Source: Vulcanisaeta moutnovskia 768-28
Lineage (GTDB): Archaea; Thermoproteota; Thermoprotei; Thermoproteales; Thermocladiaceae
Assembly (NCBI RefSeq): GCF_000190315.1
Contig: NC_015151.1
Span: forward strand, 496,001 to 560,000
Length of the DNA stretch: 64,000 nucleotides
Direction of reading: 5' to 3'
Shown: piece by piece, positions 25,387-27,066 of the stretch
Layout of the letters: each line of letters starts with the position of its first letter
How positions within the stretch are numbered: position 1 is the first letter of the stretch
Position numbers and translations under genes: made by a program
The notes under the pieces: generated by a model
Told to the model about the DNA's origin: nothing
What the model saw: only the letters and a program-made list of their open reading frames with translations
The model's database searches: none

Positions 25387-25725
25387 TCATTGGTTAATAA
25401 CGGATGGTCTTATGGATAGTACCTTAATGGTATCGCCAGGTCCAATACCATACAATTCCCTAACACCCCTGGGTATTGTGAATTGTCTCGAGTCAGTATG
25501 CCTAGTCCTCAGCAACCTAACACCCTTCAGCTCGATTACAAAGCCCTTATACTCAAGGTCAACATCAGCGAACCTTATGTGGGTTATACCCAAAGCCCTA
25601 ACTAAGCTTGCTGGTAATAACACCTGGTTATTTATGTACAACCTAACCGTGAAGGGCAGTGTGGTCACATTAAACCTCTCCAACTTCCTACGTACAGTCA
25701 CCCTAACAACCACGTCTATCACCAA
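25387..25725 (-). CDS. protein with two AbrB-like swapped-hairpin segments
   Basis: A 112-residue protein. The C-terminal half, RQFTIPRGVRELYGIGPGD followed by TIKVLSI, is a good AbrB/SpoVT pattern. The N-terminal half, NQVLLPASLVRALGI followed by a strand pair, looks like a second, diverged copy. It would be a DNA-binding or antitoxin-like protein working as a pseudo-dimer in one chain. No toxin gene is adjacent. The first half is my pattern reading. Confidence 0.6.
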   Translation of the reverse strand: MVIDVVVRVTVRRKLERFNVTTLPFTVRLYINNQVLLPASLVRALGITHIRFADVDLEYKGFVIELKGVRLLRTRHTDSRQFTIPRGVRELYGIGPGDTIKVLSIRPSVINQ

Positions 25726-25878
25726 TCAGTTCCTCAATACTACCACACTTAAGTAATACTCCGTGGAAAATACGTGAAACCAAATTGAAAATGCACCAAC
25801 ATGCACAGTGGTAAATAAAGGTTTCACGTAAGATAAAGAACAGAAAGAGATTTAAAGAAGGGATTGAACACAAACCAA

Positions 25879-26109
25879 ATGCCCAGCAGAGCAATAGGCA
25901 TGGGCATGTGCCCAAGGTGCGGAAAACCAGGAACAGTAGTAATAAAGGCAGGAAACTACGTATACATAAAGCACGGAAATACCTGGCACTACATAGGAAC
26001 AATAGACAAAGTAAACCTAAACAAAATACTAATAAAAGACAATAAAACATCGGAAGAATTAAAAGAAAATAACATATATAATCATAAAGATACTAAAAAT
26101 AAAAAATAA
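25879..26109 (+). CDS. small zinc-ribbon-like protein
   Basis: An archaeal small protein with CPRCGKPGTV at its start and KHGNTWHYIG about 20 residues later, so one CxxC and two histidines could bind zinc. The C-terminal third is Asn/Lys-rich low complexity. Box A AGATTTAAAG at 25848-25857 is 26 nt from the ATG at 25879; an upstream TTG at 25864 is less likely. Codons end almost only in A or C, unlike the genes before it. The frame ends TAA at 26109, directly where an open membrane-protein frame begins (see next entry). Confidence 0.65.
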   Translation: MPSRAIGMGMCPRCGKPGTVVIKAGNYVYIKHGNTWHYIGTIDKVNLNKILIKDNKTSEELKENNIYNHKDTKNKK

Positions 26110-26381
26110 TTGTTATTAGTATAACTTTATTACTAATAATACTAGGAGTTCTTATTTATAGTGTATTTTCTATAGTTCCAAAATATGTTATAAATAATGA
26201 AAATAGAAATAATACGATAGTTACTTTGTTTTCTCAATGCCATTTAGTTAAATATAATAATGATATATATGAATTTTCATGCAATAATATAACAAATACA
26301 GCAAATGTATCAGTTAATTATATTTATAATTTTAATCTAACAAAGTATAATATATCGGATACATATACTATGATTAAATGA
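26109..26381 (+). other. open frame for a membrane/extracellular segment, no start codon
   Basis: In the -1 frame relative to the zinc-ribbon gene, 90 codons are open up to TGA at 26379-26381. They code for a hydrophobic helix (ITLLLIILGVLIYSVFSIV) and an Asn/Tyr-rich tail with two Cys (SQCHL, FSCNN). There is no ATG or GTG and the only TTG is midway. A single -1 slip on the A6 run at 26101-26106 would join it to the zinc-ribbon protein as a cytosolic-ribbon/one-TM/outside-tail fusion. It may also be a decayed or mis-sequenced gene. Confidence 0.4.
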
Positions 26382-26383
26382 AT

Positions 26384-26836
26384 CTATCCTACCAAGAATA
26401 TATATATTGTTGCACTAACAGTATATGGGCTCACATTATATACAAGAACATACCAAGAACCATATCCTGGGTTAAATATGAGTAAAGCAGAACCACCACT
26501 AACGTAGCCTCCATATCCTGACCATGTATTTGCATTTATCACTCCCACAAATAAAGTCGCAGATGATGGTGACCAAGTTACATAAACCCCTAATTCTTGG
26601 CCTGAACTTAGTGTGTATGGTCCTATTAATACGCCCGTATTTGGCGGTAGTGTTGGGTCTATTCTGTGGGTTGGTGGTAATGTCTTTAGTTTTAGTGCTG
26701 TTACTTCTTTGATTATTGTTACGCCTGGTGTGTCTGGCTTTATTTTTGCTGCTTGCATTGCCATTGTTGTTCCTGCCATTAGTGCTACTACGAGTAGTAA
26801 AGCGGGTAGTACTAGTGCTAGGGCTTTCCTCGTCAT
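26384..26836 (-). CDS. secreted protein of unknown function
   Basis: About 150 residues with a Sec-type signal peptide (basic MTRK, then ALALVLPALLLVVALMAG, cut near an AMA site). The mature part ends in a beta-rich, Gly/Tyr/Ser domain (SGQELGVYVTWSPSSATLFV, SGYGGYVSGGSALLIF, YGSWYVLVYN) that looks like a small beta sandwich of the pre-peptidase C-terminal kind. The ATG at 26836 lies 26 nt below box A CTTAAAAA (minus, 26858-26866), so the ATG at 26851 is rejected. The signal-peptide part uses A/C-ending codons and the rest does not. Confidence 0.6.
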   Translation of the reverse strand: MTRKALALVLPALLLVVALMAGTTMAMQAAKIKPDTPGVTIIKEVTALKLKTLPPTHRIDPTLPPNTGVLIGPYTLSSGQELGVYVTWSPSSATLFVGVINANTWSGYGGYVSGGSALLIFNPGYGSWYVLVYNVSPYTVSATIYIFLVG

Positions 26837-27002
26837 AGGTAATATTCTCATTTAATATTTTTAAGTATTACCTCTGTAGTACTTTCGGTGTACTTTGTTC
26901 CTTATTTCTATTTTATTATTTCAATTTATAAAGAGAGTCTTTTAGAAATAGAAAATGAGAAGTAGATCGCAATTAACAGGTTGAAAGAGCTAGTCAGTAA
27001 CG

Positions 27003-27066
27003 GTTAAATCAGCACTCGGCAAATTCGTCACTTCTCTGGCAGTCGAGGTCCCTACTCATCATACTG
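27003..27066 (-). ncRNA. C/D box sRNA (2'-O-methylation guide), candidate
   Basis: On the minus strand the parts come in the canonical order: C box ATGATGA (27062-27056), 13-nt guide, D' CTGC (27042-27039), 7-nt spacer, C' GTGACGA (27031-27025), 12-nt guide, D box CTGA (27012-27009). The span of 54 nt is normal for archaea. A TATA element CTTATAAG at 27085-27092 lies 26 nt ahead of the expected 5' end. The D guide is complementary to CACUCGGCAAAU, close to the conserved ACUCGGCAAA of 23S rRNA (near E. coli 1670, from memory). L7Ae, fibrillarin and Nop5 would bind it. Confidence 0.7.

Follow-up and report, generated by a model that had tools for sequence, protein, structure and literature searches.

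The window, a 64,000-nucleotide stretch of the Vulcanisaeta moutnovskia 768-28 genome (2,298,983 bases, designated G000; the genomes compared with it carry labels of the same kind, such as G001 and G010), carries a short zinc-ribbon frame whose stop codon overlaps the beginning of a second frame encoding a membrane helix. The features of the locus and its surroundings are as follows.

25387 to 25725, minus strand: divergent neighbour, a protein with an AbrB/MazE-like DNA-binding domain (Pfam PF04014, E=1e-5, above the cut-off).
25771 to 25830, no strand: inverted repeat TACGTGAAACC / GGTTTCACGTA with perfect 11-bp arms, in the divergent promoter region.
25852 to 25858, plus strand: ATTTAAA, a TATA-like box about 24 bases 5' of the ATG, invariant in 8 of 8 aligned genomes.
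25879 to 26109, plus strand: first frame, 76 amino acids from ATG 25879 to TAA 26107-26109, encoding a zinc-ribbon domain with a Lys-rich linker.
26101 to 26106, plus strand: run of six A (A6) at the frame change, which is A7 in the near-identical copy of G005.
26103 to 26381, plus strand: second frame, offset by -1 and lacking a usable start codon; its 92 codons encode a membrane helix followed by an Asn-rich outer tail with two Cys.
26384 to 26851, minus strand: convergent neighbour, a small secreted or anchored protein without a Pfam match.

The open reading frame list placed the start of the first frame at an upstream TTG (25864) and not at ATG 25879. The second frame was stop-free over all 92 codons (26103-26381), in agreement with the original prediction of a start-less frame of about 90 codons that overlaps the first TAA and contains a clear transmembrane helix. 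Its hydropathy maximum, calculated over a 19-residue window, was 2.89 at residues 2-20. The earliest ATG, GTG or TTG in this frame is TTG 26226, which sits 3' of the helix, and the frame is therefore left without a usable start. The stretch 26034-26381 has a G+C content of 18%; none of 5000 dinucleotide-preserving shuffles of it contained a stop-free run of at least 92 codons (mean 35, maximum 88), so the open length of the second frame is not a product of chance. Across the A-run, the codons in the first frame read AAT AAA AAA TAA.

Upstream of the gene, ATTTAAA may serve as the promoter of the zinc-ribbon frame, with a leaderless start. The inverted repeat lies between the AbrB-like gene and the zinc-ribbon gene and represents a possible operator; the TTTCACG of its right arm is invariant in 8 of 8 aligned genomes, and its left arm varies. 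On the other side, homologues of the convergent neighbour, covering most of its length, adjoin the gene in seven of the eight other genomes that hold the locus, the G001 contig ending before this point.

Twelve genomes of the genus were searched, including that of the window, and nine hold the locus, that is, eight besides G000. Over matched stretches, the first frame was 75-87% identical to its orthologues in G002, G003, G004, G007, G008 and G010. Four of the eight other genomes contain the gene as an uninterrupted single frame (G007, 172 amino acids; G008, 165; G010, 169; G003, 166). The G005 copy stays open through the junction, over 132 codons, on a contig whose first base already lies within the zinc ribbon, so that the start is not visible. 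The G001 contig stops before the junction, and the copies in G002 and G004 are broken, both in drafts with frequent frameshifts. Out of eight relatives, the two parts thus share one frame in the four intact copies and, across the junction, in G005, as anticipated if both frames belong to one protein joined at the A-run. Orthologues split into two genes with clear starts of their own, which would have spoken against this view, were found in none of the eight. Two frames are present in this assembly, yet it is extremely improbable that they are two separate genes; no start codon precedes the helix, and the orthologues contradict such an arrangement. Comparison within the genus therefore indicates that the locus is one gene, not two.

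The intact Vulcanisaeta product would be a single-pass membrane protein of about 165-172 amino acids, in which a Lys-rich linker and a helix connect a cytoplasmic zinc ribbon to an outer tail of about 65 residues. Conserved in the ribbon are CPxCG, an H that never varies and, in most copies, W[H/C]Y. C11, C14, H32 and H/C37 are the likely zinc ligands, and the exchange between H and C at the last of these sites suggests a metal ligand. Among the four intact copies, the pre-helix linker contains 5-7 Lys or Arg. Helix, two Cys and 4-5 N-glycosylation-type sequons were found in all five tails examined (G000, G003, G007, G008 and G010), compared with 0-1 sequons before the helix; the enrichment over shuffled tails was modest, since 53 to 367 of 2000 shuffles matched it. 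The positive charge of the linker and the sequons of the tail suit an N-inside, C-outside topology. The intact protein probably crosses the membrane once, with its zinc ribbon inside and an Asn-rich, fast-evolving tail with two Cys outside. An AlphaFold2 model (7-row alignment, mean pLDDT 64.8) placed strands in blocks with a pLDDT of 82-88 and a single helix at 55-103, and gave no confident tail.

The two halves of the protein differ in their rates of evolution. The zinc ribbons of the four intact copies were 91-94% identical over 53 codons (dN 0.024-0.050, dS 0.33-0.73) and their tails 36-54% identical (dN 0.32-0.61, dS 0.93-1.71), the resulting dN/dS ratios being about 0.1 for the ribbon versus about 0.3-0.5 for the tail. 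The tail frame of the window was 64% identical to the G010 tail at the amino acid level over 89 codons, with dN 0.22 against dS 0.73; this excess of synonymous change shows that the second frame was under purifying selection as a protein before it was broken. Base composition follows the same boundary: in the four intact copies the ribbon has 38-42% G+C and the tail 18-23%; the corresponding values for the gene of the window are 42% and 18% (41% for the whole window). All four intact copies therefore show an abrupt within-gene shift from a conserved ribbon of about 40% G+C to a fast-evolving tail of about 20% G+C.

Of 45 genomes of the order, 22 contain zinc-ribbon relatives, and several of those that were read had, by eye, hydrophobic segments 3' of the ribbon. 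The assignment of the first frame to a zinc-ribbon gene, made in the original prediction, is supported by the conserved CPxCG...H...W[H/C]Y pattern and by a weak profile match to PDB 2X5C (E=0.0037 over 29 profile positions). This structure, PSV ORF131, belongs to PF22415 (PSV ORF131-like), a family that shares the CPxCG...H motif and to which the membrane tail of the Vulcanisaeta protein remains unaligned. PF22415 scored 19 bits on the window, below the Pfam gathering cut-off of 27; nine of ten members of the family alignment (A1) matched it at E <= 0.1, with a best value of 0.00034 and 16.2 bits for the first member, G007. Foldseek with the AlphaFold2 model did not return 2X5C among the 50 matches listed, none of which reached E <= 0.001. 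A viral origin was considered and rejected, as the zinc-ribbon alignment (A2) had no relative among viral contigs. Searches of PHROGs gave weak matches only, PADLOC gave no match, and NCBIfam gave nothing near a cut-off.

The closest copy of the gene is that of G005. Over 25983-26697 (about 715 bases), the window and G005 differ by one substitution and the A6/A7 indel and by nothing else. Beyond the shared tract the identity of the G005 contig to the window declines, reaching 74-76% farther along. A segment of about 1.1 kb is 97% identical between the two genomes (window 25983-27062; G005 contig C15, 11513-12592), with farther parts at 74-76%. Near-identity over the tract against 74-76% farther on indicates that it was exchanged recently between the two lineages, as a recombination tract between species that spans the zinc-ribbon gene and its convergent neighbour. 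The run length most likely changed after this exchange and, since the shared tract is very recent, the shortening would be very recent too. At the junctions of G003, G007, G008 and G010 there is no run of six or more, and A/T runs of 5-7 occur at various places within the gene in these intact copies.

In this assembly the A-run at the junction of linker and helix is one base shorter than in the near-identical copy. Translation would then stop at TAA 26107 and release a 76-residue soluble zinc ribbon without its anchor. We consider it very probable that the locus is a single gene, interrupted where the A-run, in this strain only, is shortened by one base, either through a recent slip mutation or through a residual homopolymer calling error.

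Assembly noise was assessed by reading the proteins of five sets (G000, G001, G005, G007 and G010) against each stretch to count frameshift sites. Four public Vulcanisaeta drafts were noisy, with 12 sites in 19.8 kb of comparable coding sequence for G002, 7 in 14.6 kb for G003, 9 in 10.6 kb for G004 and 17 in 31.6 kb for G008; with a frameshift roughly every 1-2 kb of coding sequence, they cannot be relied on to show whether a gene is intact. Ion Torrent PGM was used for the sister JCM draft BBBK (PMC9872577), and these four drafts may have been made in the same way. Because G003 and G008 are so rich in frameshifts, their intact copies are weaker evidence than those of G007 and G010. The broken copies in G002 and G004 are uninformative for the same reason, and the idea that the gene was repeatedly and independently broken, drawn from these two copies, was dropped. 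The remaining stretches were cleaner (G000, 2 sites in 34.8 kb; G007, 1 in 25.1 kb; G005, 0 in 8.4 kb; G010, 1 in 19.5 kb; G001, 1 in 7.5 kb). The two G000 sites were the A-run break itself and 22662; the latter is also the single site in the G007 and G010 regions and reflects a peculiarity of G001.

A wider comparison read 306 G007 proteins (440 kb) on 464 kb of G000. It gave three frameshift calls in two genes over 286.8 kb of coding sequence, a count that covers sites other than 26106, since the tails are too divergent for the thresholds of this G007-only test and the break is missed. The reverse comparison, with 307 G000 proteins over 287.7 kb of coding sequence in G007, gave no frameshift call. 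The G000 assembly is fairly clean but imperfect.

These counts bear on the origin of the shortened run. One reading, to which we give just short of an even chance, is that a homopolymer error persists in the deposited genome and that the gene is intact in the cell, with A7. In its favour, the sole near-identical copy, that of G005, carries A7, frameshifts are frequent in the four related drafts, and 454 reads were reportedly used for the V. moutnovskia 768-28 genome. A literature search on pyrosequencing listed no paper on how this genome was sequenced, and one on Ion PGM in Vulcanisaeta found none. The 464 kb of G000, however, do not look under-called: A/T runs of exactly 7 are not depleted (six there, three in the 440 kb of G007), a result that lends no support to systematic under-calling, and none of the three other frameshift calls in G000 falls at an A/T run of six or more.

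A genuine and recent replication-slip deletion would instead mean that the gene is a young pseudogene or still produces a truncated, soluble zinc ribbon; this we hold to be somewhat short of an even chance. It fits surroundings that are fairly clean of frameshifts and a gene that evolves fast and is exchanged between species. Another G000 gene, located just outside the window, is broken twice relative to G007 (494900 and 495117, contig C1), in keeping with genuine breakage. Against a deletion, the tail shows no further decay, with one substitution relative to G005, and the sequence itself has nothing to tell a deletion from a calling error. Between mutation and calling error the odds are about even. 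The situation resembles the singleton frameshifted genes of GeneTack, with a poly-A frame change in one genome and intact homologues elsewhere; in the accessible part of that study, its authors attribute such singletons to sequencing errors or recent indels (PMC3711429). Unlike those singletons, the Vulcanisaeta gene has a continuous copy that is nearly identical, that of G005, and the event can thus be dated as very recent.

It is quite unlikely that a -1 slip at the A6, programmed or transcriptional, yields both the 76-residue soluble form and the full-length membrane form. A P-site tRNA paired with the AAA codon ahead of TAA is able to slip and re-pair one base earlier, and a hairpin starts 4 nt 3' of the run (z -1.81 at 37 °C, with 10 of 200 shuffles folding as well). 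This hairpin is almost all A-U, is unfolded in the model at 80 °C, and does not amount to a stable structure 5-9 nt downstream. As defined in the accessible part of a review (PMC8211752), a -1 slippery heptamer reads X-XXY-YYZ in frame; such a heptamer is absent here, the site reading T-AAA-AAA. The run itself is unconserved, as G003, G007, G008 and G010 all stay in frame without it, and A6 is shorter than the run length, more than 7, that the accessible part of PMC3711429 associates with transcriptional slippage. A literature search on archaeal transcript slippage found nothing decisive. The archaeal precedent is fucA1, the Saccharolobus solfataricus alpha-L-fucosidase; the accessible part of PMC8211752 describes no other -1 frameshift in a cellular archaeal gene. 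Like the Vulcanisaeta gene, fucA1 has two frames with a -1 offset at an A-run, and full-length relatives of fucA1, too, are set apart by a single A even though fucA1 is truly recoded, so that programmed recoding is still conceivable. According to the same source, however, fucA1 has an in-frame A-AAA-AAT, conserved surroundings and demonstrated expression, whereas the Vulcanisaeta run is unconserved and lacks the heptamer. G005 is a fragment, and a one-base error in its A7 is possible; if the true run were A6 in both genomes, slippage would regain ground.

A phase-variable on/off switch, with a run length that flips in the population, is very unlikely. The product would be membrane-exposed, and the A6/A7 difference lies inside a near-identical tract; but the run has only 6-7 bases and is unique to the allele of the window and G005, other alleles having no run of six or more at the junction. 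More broadly, the A-run could be a real length switch between a soluble 76-residue ribbon and a membrane-anchored form with its variable outer tail, operated either by slip mutations arising in the population or by P-site slippage ahead of the TAA, in an allele that recombination carries from one Vulcanisaeta species to another; this we regard as unlikely.

Four causes had originally been put forward for the frame change. The continuous A7 copy of G005 and the four copies that are in frame without such a run at the junction support two of them, recent mutation and sequencing error; the other two, programmed and transcriptional slippage, are unlikely. Collectively, a single gene interrupted by a shortened A-run remains the preferred reading, and the locus should be recorded in annotation as one interrupted gene. 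The case is otherwise ordinary. The intact family has a small interest of its own, as it combines a nearly invariant cytoplasmic ribbon with a very A+T-rich, fast-changing outer tail. If the A6 is real, the locus would give a simple way to test recoding in Archaea on a second example, next to the one cellular case counted in the accessible part of PMC8211752.
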